NCBI GenBank assembly: GCA_905339155.1
Contig: CAJPFJ010000031.1
Coordinates: 1 to 64,000 of the forward strand
DNA: 64,000 nt
Reading direction: 5' to 3'
Source of the DNA: Methanosarcinales archaeon
Lineage (GTDB): Archaea; Halobacteriota; Methanosarcinia; Methanosarcinales; Methanoperedenaceae
Within the stretch, counting starts at the first letter, position 1; each line of letters starts with the position of its first letter. This document shows positions 40,148-62,771 of this stretch, piece after piece. The notes beneath the pieces were generated by a model. That model searched no databases. It was given only the letters and a program-made list of their open reading frames with translations, and was not told the origin of the DNA. Position numbers and translations under genes: made by a program.

Positions 40148-40852
40148 TTATTTATCACCCACTAGATTCAATTTTGCTCCTTCTATCTCATACTCAAACC
40201 ATGGAGTAGGTTTTGATGATAAGCCGACAATTCTTATAAAATTCTTATCGTTTTTAGATTCAATTTCTATGACTCCATCAAACAGTTGTTTTAATGTCGC
40301 TATTGCCTGCTCATCATGCATACCGCTTTCTATCATGTATATCCCAATACCTCCAATTGATTTTACGCGTCCTGTAAAAACATGGAGGAACCTGAAAACC
40401 GTTTGAATATTCGAATACATCAAAATTGCAGAAACTGAATTGATATGAAGTTGAATTTTCTTAATATTCTTTTTCTTTAAGAATTCATCAAAGAACTGGC
40501 TGATTTTTACTCCAATCCCCGTAAGATCAACCGGACTGCTTGCTATTTTGATATTTTCATTTTCCGGGATCGCAGAACCAAGGGTTTTGCTGACGCAGTC
40601 GATTATACCGATCCTGTCTAAAGGCAAATCCAATTTATTTTCTTTGAACCATTCCAGAATCTGAGGGGCCGATTCCCGGGTTGTTACAGTTGTTATTGCA
40701 TTCCCATTTATCGCAGCGCCTTGATACATTATATGATTCAGGACAAACTCCTTTCTACTCATGGGAGGCCCTATCATCATAAAATTCGAGCCTTTTCTTA
40801 TACCCTCGATCCCATTATCCAGTTCTTTAATTCCAAGTGTATAATCGCTCAT
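40148..40852 (-). CDS. KaiC/RecA-like protein with non-canonical P-loop, paralogue 1
   Basis: 234 residues. MSDYTLGIKELDNGIEGIRKG is the usual start of KaiC-like ATPases, but the P-loop reads GPPMSRKEFVLNH where GxxxxGK[ST] is expected, so ATP hydrolysis is doubtful. Later blocks VTTRESAPQILEWF, IASSPVDLTGIGVKISQFF and LHINSVSAILMYSNIQTVFRFLHVF are conserved in the paralogue at 61971. It overlaps the response regulator gene by ATGA and is probably its direct partner. Confidence 0.75.
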   Translation of the reverse strand: MSDYTLGIKELDNGIEGIRKGSNFMMIGPPMSRKEFVLNHIMYQGAAINGNAITTVTTRESAPQILEWFKENKLDLPLDRIGIIDCVSKTLGSAIPENENIKIASSPVDLTGIGVKISQFFDEFLKKKNIKKIQLHINSVSAILMYSNIQTVFRFLHVFTGRVKSIGGIGIYMIESGMHDEQAIATLKQLFDGVIEIESKNDKNFIRIVGLSSKPTPWFEYEIEGAKLNLVGDK

Positions 40853-41670
40853 AATTTCTTCCTTTCAGATAATTTCGTCGTCTCATAATTTCTGGTGCGC
40901 TCAAAAACATCATAGAAAATCAACACAATACCAAGTATGTTATTTCCATCAATTTTGATGGTTGAACCGATAATATCAACAGGTATTTTCATGCCTGCCT
41001 TAGTTATCAATACTGTATGATCCGCCAGACCGTAGAACACATCTTCTCTAATTGCTTTTTTTACAGGGTCTTCTATTATTTTATTCGTTTCTTCGTCAAT
41101 AATATTAAAGATATCTGTAAGGGGTTTCCCTAAAGCGTCATTTTGTTTCCAGCCTGTCAATGCCTCTGCGATAGGATTCATAAGTCTTATTGTCCCTTGC
41201 GGATCAGTGGCAATCACCGCATCGCCTATGCTCTCGATAACTGCTATAAGCCATTGGTTTTTCTCTCTCAAAATCCTTTCACTCTCTCTTAACTTTTTTT
41301 CCATTTCATGTTTGTAGAGAGCGATCTCAACGGTGATCTGTAATTCTCTTTCTTTAAATGGTTTAATTAAATACCCAAAAGGCTCTGTTATTTTTGCCCT
41401 TTGGAGTGTTTTTTCATCAGCATAAGCAGTAAGGTACACAACAGGGACATCAAAAAGGGAATGTATTTGCCCAGCAGTTTCGATCCCATCCATCTTGCCA
41501 TGTATTACGATATCCATCAAAACGAGATCAGGACTATTTTCTTTTATTTTTGTAATAGCCTCTTCCCCCGAAGATACTGTTACCGGAACGGCATATCCCA
41601 TTGTCTTTAATTTTCTCTGTAATCCTTCAGCAATAATTATTTCATCTTCAACTATCAATATTTGTTTCAC
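40849..41670 (-). CDS. REC-PAS response regulator
   Basis: 273 residues: receiver domain (about 1-120) with ILIVEDEIIIAEGLQ, phospho-acceptor Asp in LVLMDIVIHGKMDGIE (about residue 52), switch Thr in VVYLTAYADE and Lys in YLIKPFKEREL, followed by one PAS domain (about 135-250: VIESIGDAVIATDPQGTIRLMNP). No DNA-binding or enzymatic output domain. Translationally coupled to the KaiC-like gene, and 67 bases downstream of the histidine kinase gene. Confidence 0.9.
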   Translation of the reverse strand: MKQILIVEDEIIIAEGLQRKLKTMGYAVPVTVSSGEEAITKIKENSPDLVLMDIVIHGKMDGIETAGQIHSLFDVPVVYLTAYADEKTLQRAKITEPFGYLIKPFKERELQITVEIALYKHEMEKKLRESERILREKNQWLIAVIESIGDAVIATDPQGTIRLMNPIAEALTGWKQNDALGKPLTDIFNIIDEETNKIIEDPVKKAIREDVFYGLADHTVLITKAGMKIPVDIIGSTIKIDGNNILGIVLIFYDVFERTRNYETTKLSERKKL

Positions 41671-41737: not shown

Positions 41738-44659
41738 TCATTTTATCCCTCTGAATTTAATGTGAAATTCCGTTCCGCCCTTTAGAATTAGATTGATTTC
41801 ACCATGAAGCTGGTTTTCTGCCAGTATCGTTACCAGATGTAAACCCAATGATTCGGTTTTTCTAAAATCAAGGTCTTTAGATATACCAATGCCGTTATCG
41901 CCAATCACAAGTTCAAGCATATTTTCATGCGTTTTGAAAAACGATACCTTGATTTCACCTTTTCTTCCTGCTGGAAAAGCGTATTTCAAAGAATTAGTGA
42001 CAAGTTCATTGATTATCAATCCGCATGGAATAGCAAAATCAATATCAAGTTGAATGTTTTCGATATTCATGTTGAGCAATATGTTTCCCGAATTGGAATT
42101 ATAAGACTGAAAAAGGTTAGCCACCAGATCGTTGAGGTATTCATAGAAGTCTATTTTTGCCAGGTCTTTTGATCGATAAAGTTTTTCATGGACAAGAGAC
42201 ATCGATGCTATCCTGTTCTGACTTTCTGTAAAAATATCGATCACGTTTTTATCTTTAATATACTGGATTTGATGATCCAGAAGACTGGAAACAATTTGCA
42301 TATTGTTCTTGACACGATGATGGATTTCTTTCAGAAGCGTTTCTTTCTCATTTAGAGATGCCTCAATTTGCCTTTCAGTCTTCTTGCGCTCGGTGATGTC
42401 CCTGATTATTGCCATCTGTGCCCATTTGCCTTCATAATCAATTATGGAAGCATTTATTTCAACGGGAATGTTTTTTCCATCTTTTGAAATGATTTCTATT
42501 TCATAGTTATTCAGGGCTTCTTGTCCTGATGATCTCTTTTTATAGTTGTCAATTACAAATTCTCTAAATTCCAGAGCTACAAAGTCGATAAATGGTTTTT
42601 CAATTGACTCTGTTACCGGGAAGCCCGCGATGCTAACCATTTTTGAATTTATAAATTTAAGCAAACCATCTTCAATAATAATAATTCCATCATTTCCTTG
42701 TTCCACAAGAGTTGCATATTTTCGTTCAATTATTAGCCGCGCCTCCTCTGCCTGCTTGCGGTCGGTTATGTCGCGGGAATTAACTATGATTTCAGATGTT
42801 CCAGCATTGTCAATTATAATTTTGCCCATGGATTCAAGAACGCGCCAAGAACCGTCCTTATGTTTGAAGCGATACTCTTCTAACTGTCCGGAACCCGGAT
42901 CTTGAATTCCCTTATTTATAGCGCCCATAACACCGGCTATATCTTCAGGGTGTATGAGTTCAAATGCGTTTTTACCGGTCAACTCTTCGGGTTTATATCC
43001 GAACACCCGTTCAACAGAGGGACTTATGTAGCTTATTTTTCCGTATGTATCCATAACCGTAATAATATCCATGACATTTTCTGTGACTGAACGGAAATGT
43101 TCCTCATTACGTCGCAGTGTATTCTCCATCTGCTTATGCTCGGTTATATCCCTTGCCACATGAATGACTTTATTAATTTTTCCGGTTTCATCCATTATTG
43201 GCGATGTAGAGACCTCTATATATCGCTTTTCTCCATCCTTCATATAATGCACATGTTCGGCTGTCGAATGTTCACCAGTATTCAAAGTACCAATAAGAGG
43301 GCAGATATCATCAGGAGGAATACACGGTTGTGTATGCTTATGGGTAATCTCATAGCATGTTTTTCCTATTACTTCTTCTTTCTTCATTCCATAATTCGTG
43401 AGGAAAACTGAATTTACGTCGATAATCCTGAAATTATTGACATCAATAACTGAAATAGCGTCCTTCATGCTATTTAGGGTCGTTTCGGCAAATTCTTTTG
43501 ATTTTTTAAGTAAATCCTCTGTTCGCTTGCGCTCAGTAATATCTTTAGCTACAATTACAATCCCGGAGATGTATCCTTTATCATCACACATTGTTGACAT
43601 CGAAAATAATACGGGTATTTTTCTGCCATCTTTTGCAAGATAAGTTTTTTCCAAATTGATAATTGAACCTTTTTTGAGTAATTCATTAAGCCATGTACTT
43701 TTAGATTGTGTAGTCTCCTGATAAAACAACTTATCAATAGGTTGCCCTACAATCTCTTCTGATCTATATCCCAGCATGTCACAGATGGCTTTATTCACTG
43801 TCAGGATAGTGCCTTCTGGTGTGGCAACTACCAGTGGGTCGAACATGCTTCTGATAATATTCTCTACATATTCGTTTGAAACAGTTGTTTTTTGCAGCTC
43901 TTTGGACATTTTATTGAAGACAGAAGCCAGTTTACCTACTTCATCATTCGATTGGATTGGAATATTTACATTTAAGCGCCCCTTACCGATTTCATTCGTG
44001 GCGTCATTTAGTTTTTCTATTGGCCGAGAAATGGACCTTGAAGTAAGGACACAGAGGAAGATCCCAAGCATTAGAATAAAAACGTTAAAGATTATAAATA
44101 TATTGGTATGTTCATAAATAACTATCTGTTGATTACGAAAATTAGCCTGTATTTTGTTGGTGGTTCCTGATAACAATTCACGGTTCTTCTGTCTGACGTT
44201 ATTTATCAGTTCATAAATTAAAATTCTTTTTTCGTTATCTTCTCCGGAACGATTATTTTTCAAATTTGCTATACCATTGAAATTTATATTGATTTCATGC
44301 AATATTCTTTCCATTTCCTGAAATTCAGTTATTGAATTATTAGTGGCATTCTTTTCTAATGAACTGATAATTGAATACATCTTCTCAAAATCCTTATTGG
44401 CTTCTTCTTGATTGTCTTTATTATTAACTATGAAAAAGCTATCTAAATCCTTTTCCAGGACTTCCGTGGAAATAGCGAATTCTTGTAAGGAATTGAGTTG
44501 GGAACTTAATGGTACTGCCTGTTCAGAAAGAGTACTGATTTCTACCATATCAGAATAACTACTCAGCGCCATACCCATATAAATAACAATAAGAATTGAG
44601 AATCCAATAAAAATCTTATTTCCAATCGATAATTTGAATGATTTTTCGTTTGTTTTCAC
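41738..44659 (-). CDS. Membrane PAS-rich sensor histidine kinase
   Basis: 973 residues. Two membrane segments (about 13-31 and 180-200) flank an extracellular helical sensor; then a HAMP linker (RSISRPIEKLNDATNEI), four PAS domains (about 270-385, 395-510, 520-640, 650-765), a HisKA_2 dimerisation domain with the phospho-His in LKEIHHRVKNNMQIVSSL and an HATPase with LIINELVTNSLKYAFP and DNGIGI. The HWE/HisKA_2 type is usual in Methanosarcinales. Upstream of the REC-PAS gene, so kinase, regulator and KaiC-like protein form one operon. Confidence 0.9.
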   Translation of the reverse strand: MKTNEKSFKLSIGNKIFIGFSILIVIYMGMALSSYSDMVEISTLSEQAVPLSSQLNSLQEFAISTEVLEKDLDSFFIVNNKDNQEEANKDFEKMYSIISSLEKNATNNSITEFQEMERILHEININFNGIANLKNNRSGEDNEKRILIYELINNVRQKNRELLSGTTNKIQANFRNQQIVIYEHTNIFIIFNVFILMLGIFLCVLTSRSISRPIEKLNDATNEIGKGRLNVNIPIQSNDEVGKLASVFNKMSKELQKTTVSNEYVENIIRSMFDPLVVATPEGTILTVNKAICDMLGYRSEEIVGQPIDKLFYQETTQSKSTWLNELLKKGSIINLEKTYLAKDGRKIPVLFSMSTMCDDKGYISGIVIVAKDITERKRTEDLLKKSKEFAETTLNSMKDAISVIDVNNFRIIDVNSVFLTNYGMKKEEVIGKTCYEITHKHTQPCIPPDDICPLIGTLNTGEHSTAEHVHYMKDGEKRYIEVSTSPIMDETGKINKVIHVARDITEHKQMENTLRRNEEHFRSVTENVMDIITVMDTYGKISYISPSVERVFGYKPEELTGKNAFELIHPEDIAGVMGAINKGIQDPGSGQLEEYRFKHKDGSWRVLESMGKIIIDNAGTSEIIVNSRDITDRKQAEEARLIIERKYATLVEQGNDGIIIIEDGLLKFINSKMVSIAGFPVTESIEKPFIDFVALEFREFVIDNYKKRSSGQEALNNYEIEIISKDGKNIPVEINASIIDYEGKWAQMAIIRDITERKKTERQIEASLNEKETLLKEIHHRVKNNMQIVSSLLDHQIQYIKDKNVIDIFTESQNRIASMSLVHEKLYRSKDLAKIDFYEYLNDLVANLFQSYNSNSGNILLNMNIENIQLDIDFAIPCGLIINELVTNSLKYAFPAGRKGEIKVSFFKTHENMLELVIGDNGIGISKDLDFRKTESLGLHLVTILAENQLHGEINLILKGGTEFHIKFRGIK

Positions 44660-58080: not shown

Positions 58081-59319
58081 ATGCTGGAACTTTTTAATTC
58101 CCTTACCAGAAAAAAAGAAACATTTGAACCTTCAGGGGATGTAGTTGGAATTTACACATGCGGCCCCTCTGTTTACCAGTATGCACATATCGGGAATTTC
58201 AGGACTTTTGTATTTGAAGATGTGCTTGTAAGGTACCTGAAGTTCAAAGGTTATGCAGTAAAAAGAGTGATGAACCTGACCGACATTGAAGATAAAGCAA
58301 TAACTGTTGCAAAAGAGGAAGGAAGGCAGCTTTCTGAATTGACACAATATTACTCAAAGATTTTTTTTAAGGATATGGAATTATTGAACCTGTTACCTGC
58401 CGATGTTTTCCCAAGAGCTACAGAACATGTGCCTGAGATAATAGATATTATAAAAAAGATAATGGAAAATGGTTACGCTTATAGTGGCCAGGATGGGACA
58501 ATTTATTATGATGTCTCGAAATTCAAAGATTATGGAAAACTCTCACATCTTAAGCTAAGGGCAGGAAAGAAAAAAATTAAACGCGACGAATGGGGCGAAG
58601 ATACTTCAATTATCTCGGATTTCGCTCTCTGGAAGTCATATGAGAAGAAAGACAGAAATGTTTTCTGGGAAACTGAACTCGGAAAAGGCCGCCCTGGCTG
58701 GCACATAGAATGCTCTGCTATGGGTTCAAAGCATCTTGGCAAACGTTTTGATATTCATGTTGGAGGGGTAGATAACATTTTCCCGCATCATGAGAACGTA
58801 ATAGCGCAGAATTTCGGGGCGTTCGGCGTTAATCCCTCCAAATACTGGCTTCACTGCAGGCATCTCATGGTTGATGGCAAGAAAATGTCAAAATCAGCAG
58901 GGAATTTCTATACGCTCCATGATCTTATTGATAAAGGATTCGAGCCTATGGCGATAAAGTATCTGCTGCTTTCCACAAACTACAGGCACAGGTTGAATTT
59001 CACACTGGGGGGACTTGAGGAAGCAACAGAAAAAATCACCAGGATTTGTGCTGCGATAAAACACCTGAAGATAAAAAATGGCGCTGACGATATTCAAAAA
59101 ATCGTAACCATAACAAGAAAAAAATTTGAAAATGCGATGGATGATAACCTCAATACAGGAAAAGTGCTAAAAATCATGGAAGAGTTGGCAGAGCAGGTCG
59201 GCAGGATGAATCCTGACAAAAAATCCTCGGAAAATATTCTTGAATTATTCAGGGATTTTGACCTGGTTCTCGGATTGCAACTATTTACATCCTTCTTATC
59301 TGCATCTCATGCTTTTTAG
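58081..59319 (+). CDS. cysS: Cysteinyl-tRNA synthetase, short C-terminus
   Basis: 412 residues, against about 460-480 in typical CysRS. Class I catalytic domain complete: zinc Cys in TCGPSVYQ (Cys27), HIGN for HIGH at about residue 36, GWHIECSAMGSKHLGKRFDIHVGG and the KMSKSAGNF loop (about residue 267). DALR helices are present, but the anticodon-binding end after LVLGLQLF is short, overlapping the PDCD5-like gene tail to tail by 35 bases. Charges tRNA-Cys; in methanogens it can coexist with SepRS/SepCysS. Confidence 0.9.
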   Translation: MLELFNSLTRKKETFEPSGDVVGIYTCGPSVYQYAHIGNFRTFVFEDVLVRYLKFKGYAVKRVMNLTDIEDKAITVAKEEGRQLSELTQYYSKIFFKDMELLNLLPADVFPRATEHVPEIIDIIKKIMENGYAYSGQDGTIYYDVSKFKDYGKLSHLKLRAGKKKIKRDEWGEDTSIISDFALWKSYEKKDRNVFWETELGKGRPGWHIECSAMGSKHLGKRFDIHVGGVDNIFPHHENVIAQNFGAFGVNPSKYWLHCRHLMVDGKKMSKSAGNFYTLHDLIDKGFEPMAIKYLLLSTNYRHRLNFTLGGLEEATEKITRICAAIKHLKIKNGADDIQKIVTITRKKFENAMDDNLNTGKVLKIMEELAEQVGRMNPDKKSSENILELFRDFDLVLGLQLFTSFLSASHAF

Positions 59320-59623
59320 GCTGAAGCTGCATCAGGAGCGCCTTAAGTTTTGCATCGTCGATCTTTCCCGCAAGTCTTCCGCTCTGGGCAAGTGACACAA
59401 GCTGCGCCTCGACATTTGCCACAAGCTCAGGCTTTGTCATTTTAAGAGTGTTCAATCTCTCTCTTGCTTCAGGTGTAAGGATCTGGCGCATGACAGCTTG
59501 CTTTTTAGCCTCATACTCCGCTCGCGCTTGCTCCTGCTGTGCAGCCTGGGCCTGACCTGAGTATTGCTGCTGCTGTAATTGCTCAAGCCTGCGCCTTTTT
59601 ATTTCTTCTAGATCCTCATCCAT
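59285..59623 (-). CDS. PDCD5/TFAR19-family DNA-binding protein
   Basis: 112 residues from ATG 59623. LEEIKRRRLEQLQQQQ is the typical N-terminal helix, then AVMRQILTPEARERLNTLKMTKPELVANVEAQLVSLAQSGRL and the basic end LKALLMQLQPKK. Homologous to archaeal DNA-binding proteins and eukaryotic PDCD5. Directly downstream of the S19e gene, a frequent archaeal pairing. Confidence 0.9.
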   Translation of the reverse strand: MDEDLEEIKRRRLEQLQQQQYSGQAQAAQQEQARAEYEAKKQAVMRQILTPEARERLNTLKMTKPELVANVEAQLVSLAQSGRLAGKIDDAKLKALLMQLQPKKHEMQIRRM

Positions 59624-59642
59624 ATTTATCAATCTCCGTCAC

Positions 59643-60092
59643 TTAATATTTGGCAAGAGCCGGATTTGTTTTTACAAGTTCGGATTTGACTTCATTTGCT
59701 GAATTATCTATGAAGGCCTGGCCTGATGGTGAGATTATCCTGCCGGTCTTCTGGTTTTTCACAAATCCCGCCTTTTCAAGCTGCTGCAATGCTTCTCTTG
59801 CAACAGAGCCGCTTCCTTTGGCATGATGGATGGGTTTATTTCCATTTCTGTGACGTCCGCCATAGAAACTCCGGAGTCTTGAAACCCCGACCGGTCCGTC
59901 TATATAGACACGTCTTAGAATTGAAGCGCATCTTACATACCACCAGTCAGCGTTATCAGGTGAAAGCTCTTTATAAGCGCCTGTTTTAACAAAACCTGCC
60001 CACTCTGGTGGTTTGGCTTTCTCGTTCGTTTTCAGTTTCTGCGCCACATTGTTTATGAGCATCTCTGCGGGCACATCATATATTGTTGTCAA
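59643..60092 (-). CDS. rps19e: 30S ribosomal protein S19e
   Basis: 149 residues, the usual length for this archaeal/eukaryotic protein. TIYDVPAEMLINNVAQKL, PPEWAGFVKTGAYKELSP, WWYVRCASILRRVYIDGPVGVSRLRSFYGGRHRNG and VAREALQQLEKAGFV are diagnostic. Needed for small-subunit maturation. First of the S19e-PDCD5 pair, 87 bases downstream of YhbY. Confidence 0.95.
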   Translation of the reverse strand: MTTIYDVPAEMLINNVAQKLKTNEKAKPPEWAGFVKTGAYKELSPDNADWWYVRCASILRRVYIDGPVGVSRLRSFYGGRHRNGNKPIHHAKGSGSVAREALQQLEKAGFVKNQKTGRIISPSGQAFIDNSANEVKSELVKTNPALAKY

Positions 60093-60178: not shown

Positions 60179-60433
60179 TTACCTTTTTCGGCAAAAAACT
60201 GCCGTATTACCCCTGACCTCAATAAGTTCTGAATTTGAAAGGTCAGCAAGTTTTTGAGCCAGTTCTTTTTTTCCATTTTCAGCAAAAGCAGATTTAAGAA
60301 TTTTAACTTTTACCATATTCCTGTTCTTCAACTGGATTTTTAACTCTTCTACCACAACATCAATCCCTGATTTCCCTACATGTAACGTGGGTTCAATAGA
60401 AGTGGCTTCTGCCTTTTTTTCCTGTTTATTCAT
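60179..60433 (-). CDS. YhbY/CRM-domain RNA-binding protein
   Basis: 84 residues: PTLHVGKSGIDVVVEELKIQLKNRNMVKVKIL is the CRM core with the GKxG loop, followed by KKELAQKLADLSNSELIEVRGNTAVFCR. YhbY proteins bind pre-ribosomal RNA. ATGA overlap with the roadblock gene upstream makes it the tail of the KaiC-GTPase-roadblock operon, which may simply be run-through to the ribosomal genes. Confidence 0.9.
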   Translation of the reverse strand: MNKQEKKAEATSIEPTLHVGKSGIDVVVEELKIQLKNRNMVKVKILKSAFAENGKKELAQKLADLSNSELIEVRGNTAVFCRKR

Positions 60434-60798
60434 TTCAATATCTCTTTTAACTTTTTCGCTGATTTATCAAGTTCCAGAAGGATCAAACCCAATCCGATAT
60501 TCGGGCTTGTAAGAAGTATCAACAGGGCCTTGGGTCCTGCTCCGACAACAATTAATTTTCCATGATCCGATTCAACAATAACCCTTGTTGGTACGCCCAT
60601 TTCAACATGTGTTGTCGCAGTCTCTGCCGCTCCGAGCATCGTGGCAGACATTGCAGCCAGGGATTCCACAAATTGTTCTTTCTGCATTATAGCCCGAATC
60701 AGTAATCCATCACGGCTTGCAGCGGCGCATGCTACCACACCGCCAACATTTTTCAGATCCGTCAATAGCTTATCTACCATTTCTATTGTATCGGACAA
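60430..60798 (-). CDS. Roadblock/LC7-domain protein
   Basis: 122 residues: VDKLLTDLKNVGGVVACAAASRDGLLIRAIM and ESLAAMSATMLGAAETATTHVEMGVPTRVIVESDHGKLIVVGAGPKALL are the roadblock (MglB-like) fold, with a C-terminal helix. In bacteria roadblock proteins act as GTPase-activating partners of Ras-like MglA. Here the gene starts one base before the stop of the KaiC-GTPase fusion, strongly supporting the pair. Confidence 0.85.
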   Translation of the reverse strand: MSDTIEMVDKLLTDLKNVGGVVACAAASRDGLLIRAIMQKEQFVESLAAMSATMLGAAETATTHVEMGVPTRVIVESDHGKLIVVGAGPKALLILLTSPNIGLGLILLELDKSAKKLKEILK

Positions 60799-61968
60799 TT
60801 ATATCCCTCTCGTGATTTTATTTATCAATATCTCAAACGCTTCAAATACTCCCTCCTTGAATTTCGCTATACAACCAACGATAGGCACATCATCGGGTAG
60901 ATGGAATTGTTCTCTTATTTCATCAGGTGTTAATGCCCCCGGCAAATCCTGTTTATTTGCGATCACCACATATGGAAGTCCATAGGACTTTGTAATGTCA
61001 AGCATATGCTTTGCGCGAATAAAATCAGAAGGATTTGTTGAATCAACAACAAGAAAAACACCCATTGATTCACCACTGAGTAATTTTATGATCGGATCAA
61101 ACCGCTCCTGACCCGGTGTCCCGAAAATGTCAGCGCTAAAACCCTTATAATCCACATGACCGTGGTCCATGGCAATAGTTGTACCCAGCCTGTCAACTGA
61201 TATCGCCCGCGTGGATAACCCATGCACAAATGTGCTCTTTCCGGCATCAAAAGGACCTGTGACAAGGATTTTTGGTATGAATATCTTTATACCGCCCGGC
61301 CTTAAAACCCTGAAAAGCATGGATTTCCTGTTTACATCTGCCCAGTCTGATTTCAGTATCCCGAAATACTGGCCAAAGATAACACGTTCAGCAATTCCGC
61401 CGATAGATATAATTGAATTGAAAAGGTCTCCCTTTATCAAATTTAATGTTTCATCAGAATAAGGCCACGCTGTGAAATTGTAAACGATTGTATGATCATA
61501 CAACATCGCCATCTTATTCCAGGTCCTGACCGCTTCAATTGTTTCTTTCTCCCCGCATAGATCCATTATTGTTGAAAGAGAACCAAAAACGATAGTACTT
61601 GGTGGCAATTCTTTTATTATATCCATTATTGTCTTGTGGAAATCTTCTATCTTATCCGGATTTGAAACAACATACCTTTCATTGGATTGAGCGCCTATCA
61701 GAGGATTATAGGAATCTACAAACAATAATTTATCTTTGTATGAACTAATATCCCATCCAAACTCTTCAAATTGGCCTTTTACAATATCAGGTATAGTGCT
61801 TGATACCACAAAAACGCATGTTCCACCCGTCTTAAGTGTGCCATAAACTGTCTGCATTCCAAAAACCTCACCTTCAACACCTGGCTGGCTGTAATAAACA
61901 AGACTCTTACCTTTTGGGATACCTCCCCCGAGGAATTCGTCAAGCTTGGGGATTCCTGTCTCTACCAT
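60799..61968 (-). CDS. KaiC-like/Ras-like GTPase fusion protein
   Basis: 389 residues. Residues 1-210 are KaiC/RecA-like (ETGIPKLDEFLGGGIPKGKSL, then YYSQPGVEGEVF at the P-loop position without Lys-Ser/Thr, VFVVSSTIPDIVKGQFEEFGWD). Residues ~225-389 form a small GTPase with G1 VTGPFDAGKSTFVHGL, switch-like TTIAMDHGHVD, G3 DIFGTPGQERFDPI and G4 VVIANKQDLPGAL. The GTPase half looks intact. It sits between a second KaiC-like gene and a roadblock gene with gaps of 2 and 0 bases, so the three products should act together. Confidence 0.85.
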   Translation of the reverse strand: MVETGIPKLDEFLGGGIPKGKSLVYYSQPGVEGEVFGMQTVYGTLKTGGTCVFVVSSTIPDIVKGQFEEFGWDISSYKDKLLFVDSYNPLIGAQSNERYVVSNPDKIEDFHKTIMDIIKELPPSTIVFGSLSTIMDLCGEKETIEAVRTWNKMAMLYDHTIVYNFTAWPYSDETLNLIKGDLFNSIISIGGIAERVIFGQYFGILKSDWADVNRKSMLFRVLRPGGIKIFIPKILVTGPFDAGKSTFVHGLSTRAISVDRLGTTIAMDHGHVDYKGFSADIFGTPGQERFDPIIKLLSGESMGVFLVVDSTNPSDFIRAKHMLDITKSYGLPYVVIANKQDLPGALTPDEIREQFHLPDDVPIVGCIAKFKEGVFEAFEILINKITRGI

Positions 61969-61970
61969 TT

Positions 61971-62681
61971 TTAATTTCCCCTTTTGATCTTTATATTATG
62001 ACCATCGACCTCATATTCAAACCAGGGGGTTGGTTTTTGAGATATTCCGACCACTCTTATAAAATTCTTATCCTCCTCTGTTTTTATCTCGATCATACCG
62101 TCAAACAATTGTTTTAATGTTGCTATTGCCTGTTCGTCATGCATGCCGCTCTCTATTACATAGATTCCCAGAGCGCCTGCTGCCTTAATACGGCCTGTAA
62201 AAACATGAAGGAACCTGAAAACGGTCTGAATATTTGAATACATCAATATTGTTGAGAGTGAATTTATATATAACTGGATCTTCTGGGTATTCTTTTTCAT
62301 AAAGAATTCCTCAAAAAACTGGCTGATCTTAACCCCAATACCTGTAAGATCAACGGGACTGCTTGCGATTTTTATATTCTCATTTTCAACCGAAGGGCCG
62401 CCAAGGGTTTTTGTAACACAATCGATTATCCCGATCCTTGCCATGGGCAGGTTCAAATTATTTTCCTCGAACCAGTCCAGAATATGACGTGCTGATTCGC
62501 GTGTAGTGACTGTAATAACTGCATTTTCATTGTTTACGGCGCCATTGTACATGATGTGGTTCAAGATGGCTTCTTTTCCAGACATGGGAGGGCCTATAAG
62601 CATTATATTCGATCCTTTTCTTATGCCTCCGATCGCATCATCCAGTTCCTTAATACCTAATGTATAGTCGTTTATTGTCAT
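61971..62681 (-). CDS. KaiC/RecA-like protein with non-canonical P-loop, paralogue 2
   Basis: 236 residues: MTINDYTLGIKELDDAIGGI, P-loop GPPMSGKEAILNHIMY (Gly-Lys-Glu instead of Gly-Lys-Ser/Thr), VTTRESARHILDWFEENNL, IASSPVDLTGIGVKISQFF, YINSLSTILMYSNIQTVFRFLHVF and YVIESGMHDEQAIATLKQLFDG. Nearly the same blocks occur in the protein at 40148. First gene of the GTPase-roadblock operon, transcribed divergently from the flavoprotein at 62772; TATA-like GGTATATATAAA lies at 62709-62720. Confidence 0.8.
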   Translation of the reverse strand: MTINDYTLGIKELDDAIGGIRKGSNIMLIGPPMSGKEAILNHIMYNGAVNNENAVITVTTRESARHILDWFEENNLNLPMARIGIIDCVTKTLGGPSVENENIKIASSPVDLTGIGVKISQFFEEFFMKKNTQKIQLYINSLSTILMYSNIQTVFRFLHVFTGRIKAAGALGIYVIESGMHDEQAIATLKQLFDGMIEIKTEEDKNFIRVVGISQKPTPWFEYEVDGHNIKIKRGN

Positions 62682-62771
62682 CGTGCTTATGATGCTATTA
62701 GGATTTTGGTATATATAAATCCTAACAAAGCTTTGAAAAGTTTAATTATCATGTAATTAATACGTGTATTT

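Follow-up and report, generated by a model that had tools for sequence, protein, structure and literature searches.

Roadblock proteins are established partners of small Ras-like GTPases, and the partial text available for MglA/MglB (PMC11016934) describes MglB as both GTPase-activating protein and guanine nucleotide exchange factor of MglA. In the MglA survey of Wuichet and Sogaard-Andersen (2014; PMC4316618, available in part), small GTPases were taken as proteins of 150 to 240 amino acids. Groups 2 to 5 of that survey have GTPGQ in the G3 motif, threonine at G2 and a coupled roadblock protein with an Asp-Gly pair, and include the conservon protein CvnD; the Group 4 genes, mostly from methanogenic euryarchaea, are described there as lacking conserved neighbors. 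Here we report on a 64,000-nucleotide stretch of genome from a Methanosarcinales archaeon of the family Methanoperedenaceae (contig CAJPFJ010000031.1; the whole stretch is referred to as the window), in which three closely packed genes encode a KaiC-like protein (P0001), a protein joining a KaiC-fold domain to a Ras-like GTPase (P0002, the fusion), and a roadblock protein (P0003). The gene set stands as a strong candidate for an archaeal signaling system that has not been described before. The reading that we favor, with moderate confidence, is an archaeal G-protein signaling module on a KaiC-fold scaffold, parallel in function to the conservons.

61971..62681, minus strand: KaiC-like partner P0001, 236 amino acids, DUF7504/KaiC fold
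60799..61968, minus strand: KaiC-GTPase fusion P0002, 389 amino acids
61303..61968, minus strand: N-terminal KaiC-fold domain of P0002, about residues 1 to 222, with PGVEGEVF at residues 29 to 36 and the P-loop lost
60802..61302, minus strand: C-terminal Ras/Arf-like GTPase domain of P0002, about residues 223 to 389, with G1 GPFDAGKST, G2 TT, G3 FGTPGQERF and G4 NKQD
60430..60798, minus strand: roadblock/LC7 protein P0003, 122 amino acids, TTG start, Asp-Gly pair at residues 30 and 31

Domain assignments and comparison with described systems

The original prediction, made from the DNA letters, placed these three genes at 60430 to 62681 on the minus strand with gaps of 2 bases (P0001/P0002) and 0 bases (P0002/P0003), and the open reading frames and Pfam assignments agree with it. 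P0001, scanned without its first codon, matched DUF7504 (7.6e-27), DUF7090 (2.3e-14) and KaiC (1e-10). P0002 matched KaiC over residues 2 to 144 (2.6e-18) and both Arf (5.1e-13) and Ras (3.2e-10) over residues 233 to 386, which bears out the proposed fusion, and P0003 matched Robl_LC7 (3.2e-11; 43.2 bits against a cut-off of 23). All of these assignments exceed the curated cut-offs. By sequence, the solved structures that come nearest to the GTPase half are those of Arf/Arl proteins (lowest E value, 4.8e-10), and the nearest Protein Data Bank (PDB) chains of P0003 are 9jue, 7f8m, 7yh1 and CvnB5 (3leq). The KaiC/RecA fold of the KaiC parts is backed by sequence and structure searches, and a Foldseek search of the PDB with an AlphaFold model agreed with the sequence results.

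The module resembles the conservon CvnA-B-C-D in that an FGTPGQ GTPase lies near a roadblock gene, and a tblastn search with its GTPase half retrieves such operons. It differs in several respects: DUF742 (CvnC) was not found among the window genes scanned, and the module's third gene is KaiC-like; no histidine kinase gene adjoins the module, the kinase genes of the window being about 16 kb away; and the GTPase is fused to a KaiC fold, has a second KaiC partner and carries a canonical NKxD G4. In a tblastn search of plasmids, 31 records matched the fusion, none over more than 80% of its length, and among the 20 matches listed the match lay within the GTPase half, with at most 19 linker residues before it. 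In the three plasmid regions opened, the GTPase adjoins a roadblock gene or is one gene off, and all share FGTPGQ with the window. A Streptomyces conservon region encodes an ATP-binding protein, a roadblock protein, a DUF742 protein and a GTPase; a Thermus thermophilus plasmid has the row GTPase, roadblock, protoglobin (L112, 2989-4486); and a Deinococcus operon has a GTPase, a roadblock protein and, further on, a GAF protein. The Thermus and Deinococcus operons share with the module the GTPase class and a roadblock gene directly after it, but they lack a KaiC domain and any annotated KaiC partner, and the lysine is missing from their G4.

By its motifs, and not by placement in the MglA tree, the P0002 GTPase is of the GTPGQ class of MglA Groups 2 to 5, sharing the G3 sequence, the G2 threonine and a coupled roadblock protein with an Asp-Gly pair. 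In contrast to those proteins, P0002, at 389 amino acids with a KaiC domain in front, lies beyond the single-domain size range of the survey, and it has a conserved KaiC neighbor. The inactivated archaeal KaiC-like (iKaiC) proteins (Makarova et al. 2017, via PMC5847659) likewise join a KaiC fold with an inactivated ATPase site to signaling parts; the available text names combinations with REC and HalOD1 and mentions no GTPase. For Asgard archaea, GTPase-roadblock fusions, TRAPPC3/V4R proteins and some MglA-like GTPases are described (PMC10933270, available in part). That set has the GTPase, roadblock and V4R folds in common with the loci reported here, in contrast to which the module has adjacent GTPase and roadblock genes and a KaiC domain on the GTPase. 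No description of a KaiC-GTPase fusion was found among the literature matches listed, which are mainly open access, and Makarova et al. (2017) may mention one. The parts are known (a KaiC-fold pseudo-ATPase, an MglA-class GTPase and a roadblock protein), and it is their arrangement and its breadth that we could not find described.

Conservation of the module and its neighborhood

Matches to the fusion were detected in 47 of the 60 near relatives searched (E value, 1e-25), in 73 of the 237 genomes from the class and in 63 of the 392 genomes sampled across the phylum (E value, 1e-40), counts that include the window's own genome and some partial or paralogous matches, in a whole-genome search covering one phylum. 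Almost the entire query was covered by 46 of the 47 near-relative matches, the match in G028 being partial. In one family of the class (f5, which we take to be Methanosarcinaceae) the matches from the class search were confined to two genera, g18 and g27. The window's own genome has one fusion, and nine further matches in it span the KaiC half in part only. A restriction to anaerobic methanotrophic archaea, with a link to methane oxidation, was suggested by an early profile and dropped because the phylum search found the fusion in other lineages. No relatives of the fusion were detected in viral contigs by a two-pattern scan.

Gene order was examined in 21 loci from named genome records (Candidatus Methanoperedens, Methanoperedenaceae archaeon or "uncultured archaeon") and in 80 further stretches chosen by family rather than at random. 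Twenty of the 21 named-record loci have the genes in the order of the window (KaiC, fusion, roadblock, YhbY), so the module is more than a chance arrangement; the other, L059, is a KaiC-only paralogue. A fusion reading frame is present in 78 of the further stretches and absent from L098 and L100. Together with the 20 named-record loci, these 78 give 98 loci in 18 family-level groups, to be read as related loci and not as independent events. Genes were counted as adjacent if they were on the same strand and no more than 700 bases from the fusion (in L081, within the same protein). Reading frames were started at the first start codon, and some gene overlaps are therefore start-site artifacts.

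A KaiC-like gene adjoins the fusion in 95 of the 98 loci (the exceptions are L070 and L165, at contig ends, and L079) and in all 18 family-level groups, and a roadblock gene adjoins it in 70 of the 98 loci and in 15 of the 18 groups. The neighborhood comparison that the original prediction proposed thus came out in its favor. The module is a conserved unit, and so the possibility raised there, that no other genome has the fusion or the gene order, did not materialize; both are present in other genomes. Among the 70 roadblock-linked loci, 56 have the order KaiC, fusion, roadblock, and in three no KaiC gene was found. In L081, from a genome assembled as one contig of 2,957,635 bases, all three domains lie in a single protein of 546 amino acids (Pfam KaiC, 3.5e-14; Arf, 1.3e-8; Robl_LC7, 7.8e-13). 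This natural three-domain protein is the best hint that the GTPase and the roadblock protein act together and, with the bacterial operons that carry the same GTPase class, it strengthens the partnership that had been proposed for the two.

The roadblock-less loci number 28: 24 belong to families f17, f20 and f27, whose members cluster as a single group in the tree; three (L097, L099 and L170) are second copies in Methanoperedens; and L163 ends with its contig. In a tree built from 87 of the 99 sequences, in which some deep joins are unsure owing to long branches, family groups are largely intact, and families f2 and f3 each divide into first and second copies. This grouping is as would be expected under vertical descent.

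Two observations concern variants of the locus. In L098 (5045-6697), from a Methanoperedens relative, a fusion-type KaiC half is joined to another C-terminal region of about 330 amino acids, so this half also serves in combination with other partners. In three of the four wide-flank loci of the roadblock-less clade (L083, L085 and L086), the KaiC-fusion pair lies between FeoB and tetrapyrrole-methylase plus DUF357 genes, as judged by clustering, with Pfam run on L083.

The genes that follow the module in the window, and a stretch that precedes it, are as follows.

60179..60433, minus strand: YhbY/CRM-domain protein, overlapping the P0003 gene by 4 bases
59643..60092, minus strand: ribosomal protein S19e, downstream of the module
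59285..59632, minus strand: PDCD5-type double-stranded DNA-binding protein, downstream of the module
62711..62719, minus strand: TTTATATAT, a TATA-like stretch read by eye, at 30 to 38 bases upstream of the start codon of P0001

The stretch TTTATATAT is a candidate archaeal promoter. Bacterial-type scans gave 11 promoter-like sites against 10.0 in shuffled sequence and 5 terminator-like sites against 3.3. The YhbY gene, on which the original prediction was silent, is probably co-transcribed with the roadblock gene, and YhbY and PDCD5 follow the module in all 20 named-record module loci, as does S19e in 19 (it was not found in L044); YhbY is also present in L061 to L063, L067, L076 and L077. 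These neighbors could point to a GTPase linked to translation or the ribosome, one that is transcribed together with YhbY, S19e and PDCD5 and monitors ribosome assembly or growth. However, among wide-flank loci the YhbY link is limited to families f1, f2 and f5, the neighbors elsewhere being V4R, radical SAM, Usp, FeoB and other genes, and the GTPase half fits Arf/Ras better than ribosome-assembly GTPases. A ribosomal role therefore seems quite improbable.

Kept and lost nucleotide-binding motifs

The motifs of the GTPase half are kept in most of the fusions. With L163 excluded because its contig ends there, G1 is kept in 97 of the 97 loci counted; the GTPGQ form of G3 is present in 67 of the 70 roadblock-linked fusions and 20 of the 27 others, and the G4 motif NKxD in 70 of 70 and 23 of 27, respectively. 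The G2 Thr-Thr, with threonine at the place of the Group 1 arginine, is found in 98 of 99 sequences. In the roadblock proteins, the Asp-Gly pair is DG in 59 of 70 loci, EG in 10 and GG in 1. The statement in the original prediction that G1, G3 and G4 are intact in P0002 stands for G1 and G4; its G3 reads FGTPGQ, without the aspartate of DxxG.

The lower counts in part of the roadblock-less loci are what might be expected if the gene set were vestigial, a leftover beside housekeeping genes with a GTPase that no longer cycles. The near invariance of G1, G2, GTPGQ and NKxD in the roadblock-linked copies, the retention of the neighborhood across deep divergence and the family-consistent tree make this extremely doubtful. 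An association between roadblock loss and drift of the G motifs was considered and set aside as weak, because the loci share descent and come mainly from a single clade.

The match of the GTPase motifs and the roadblock protein to the MglA/MglB family would also fit a switch for polarity or surface motility, in which the KaiC part would be an adaptor to pili or archaella like ArlH/FlaH. P0001 and P0002 are weakly similar to FlaH/ArlH, Foldseek ranks FlaH (4yds) 29th, and roadblock proteins of arCOG02603 are described as frequent in archaeal pilus loci (PMC4858521, available in part). However, the FlaH/ArlH scores fall far below the curated cut-offs, and no pilus or archaellum genes were recognized among the selected neighbors scanned with Pfam. 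On balance, a motility function appears unlikely.

The ATP site has been lost from the KaiC half of the fusion. At the P-loop position (residues 29 to 36, a register set by PDB alignment to PH0284), this half has PGVEGEVF or a similar sequence, and the Gly-Lys-Ser/Thr ending is present in 0 of 99 sequences. A pattern search had flagged an apparently intact P-loop in 49 of 99 sequences; in the window, the string concerned, GGIPKGKS, precedes the first strand. This candidate was rejected because KaiC proteins carry GGGIPxG there, the true site being the one without the ending in all 99. To judge from these residues, the KaiC half can hardly be an ATPase. The nucleotide-dependent switch of the original prediction would therefore reside in the GTPase alone. 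In P0001 the P-loop reads GPPMSGKE, with Gly-Lys kept and glutamate in place of Ser/Thr.

Homology to KaiC raises the question of whether the module might be a KaiC-type ATPase or phosphorylation oscillator, or a kinase, with the GTPase as its output. The KaiC gene that follows the fusion in the second module copies keeps its P-loop intact, as GPPKTGKS or GPPKCGKS, in all six copies that were aligned, which speaks for such a function. The absence of the P-loop from the KaiC half of every fusion and its alteration in P0001 argue against an oscillator, which we regard as very improbable.

Sensor links and a proposed G-protein module

Elsewhere in the window, a close paralogue of P0001 ends a row of histidine kinase, response regulator and KaiC-like genes.

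41738..44659, minus strand: multi-PAS histidine kinase with HAMP, PAS, HisKA_2 and HATPase_c domains
40849..41670, minus strand: response regulator (receiver and PAS domains) whose gene shares 4 bases with that of P0004
40148..40852, minus strand: KaiC-like paralogue P0004, 234 amino acids, 74 to 75% identical to P0001

The original prediction tied the module to this kinase operon through the paralogue. In 20 stretches around other paralogues of the genus, with kinases and regulators called by similarity to the window's own two proteins, the order kinase, regulator, KaiC was found in four, KaiC, kinase, regulator in one, and regulator, KaiC in one; one stretch (L190), which is cut off by the end of its contig, could itself be a module copy. 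A further paralogue in the window's own genome (L109, contig C40) has a DUF7504/KaiC-like domain, three PAS domains and a HisKA_2 kinase in one open frame of 848 amino acids, 734 of them within the locus. The kinase link thus has some support, from six of the 20 loci and the kinase-fused paralogue, and fails in the other 14, where neither a kinase nor a regulator was found.

Other candidate sensors lie beside the module itself. In family f2, a multi-PAS protein precedes the roadblock gene in the four second copies examined (L064, with the protein divided between two reading frames, L066, L068 and L069; of five opened, L168 was left out), and no kinase domain was recognized in it. An upstream histidine kinase had been considered for this second copy, and the phmmer similarity to the window kinase proved to lie in the PAS domains; a STAS-like tail scored under the cut-off. 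In two f3 second copies (L071, 3691-4649; L074, 3680-4632), two small proteins of about 150 and 170 amino acids with Cys-Pro motifs precede the roadblock gene; no Pfam match and no relation to V4R were found for them in these two loci, L169 not being covered. In L072, a GAF-PAS-HisKA kinase gene lies downstream of the roadblock gene. A V4R gene follows the roadblock gene in 15 of 15 loci of family f10 (L089 to L092 and L151 to L161) according to a profile made from four of these V4R proteins, and Pfam recognized V4R in five of the five proteins tested (L089, L090, L091, L092 and L094), one of which is from family f33. In L092, a protoglobin gene, a type also seen in the Thermus plasmid row, lies between the roadblock and V4R genes.

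From the observed architecture, broad conservation, gene neighborhoods, kept and lost motifs and natural fusions, we infer a G-protein module, including its GTP cycling, the action of the roadblock protein, the assembly of its KaiC parts, the direction of its signal and its final output, along the following lines. The GTPase half of P0002 would be the switch. By analogy with MglB and MglA, the roadblock protein P0003, probably as a dimer, would dock on the GTPase and set its nucleotide cycle. The N-terminal domain of P0002 would serve as a KaiC-fold pseudo-ATPase scaffold and would probably form a mixed oligomer with P0001. Interchangeable sensors would feed this complex: in Methanoperedens, two-component systems encoded beside P0001-like paralogues; in the second copy, the multi-PAS protein; and in another lineage, V4R or protoglobin proteins encoded beside the roadblock gene.

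Besides the 14 paralogue loci with neither sensor gene, several observations weigh against this G-protein module. No effector gene was found to be conserved next to the module across lineages. The 24 fusions of families f17, f20 and f27 and the three Methanoperedens second copies without a roadblock gene indicate that the roadblock protein is not required everywhere, and other gene orders occur: roadblock, fusion, KaiC in eight loci (second copies of f2 and f3) and roadblock, KaiC, fusion in two (f29). The window's genome encodes six roadblock proteins (contigs C7, C15, C17, C28, C31 and C34), a single one of which adjoins the fusion; given the five others, P0003 need not be the sole partner of P0002. 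In the G3 of L081, histidine replaces the glutamine. Finally, the AlphaFold model, built from an alignment of close relatives, has a mean pLDDT (predicted local distance difference test) of 60.6, too weak for judging interfaces.

In family f10, GTPase, roadblock and V4R genes stand in one row. The transport protein particle (TRAPP) complex uses longin domains, whose fold is related to that of roadblock proteins. V4R, moreover, has been proposed as the ancestor of the TRAPP subunit Bet3 (PMC2253512, the available text of which names neither roadblock nor GTPase). Taken together, these points would place TRAPP-like parts next to a Ras-like switch in archaea that do not belong to the Asgard group. 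More broadly, and only tentatively, the module might be a general-purpose G-protein system inherited across the phylum, in which a KaiC scaffold, a Ras-like switch and roadblock control are combined with lineage-specific sensors such as kinase relays, multi-PAS proteins, globins and V4R proteins.

Signal relay in archaea is understood only in part, and KaiC-like proteins have been put forward as hubs for which few outputs are known. If the proposed G-protein module is correct, the KaiC hub would have a tangible output in the form of a Ras-like switch, with the likely regulator of that switch encoded beside it in many lineages. The module would link archaea to the bacterial G-protein signaling of the MglA and conservon type, and three small proteins would be enough to put that link to the test.

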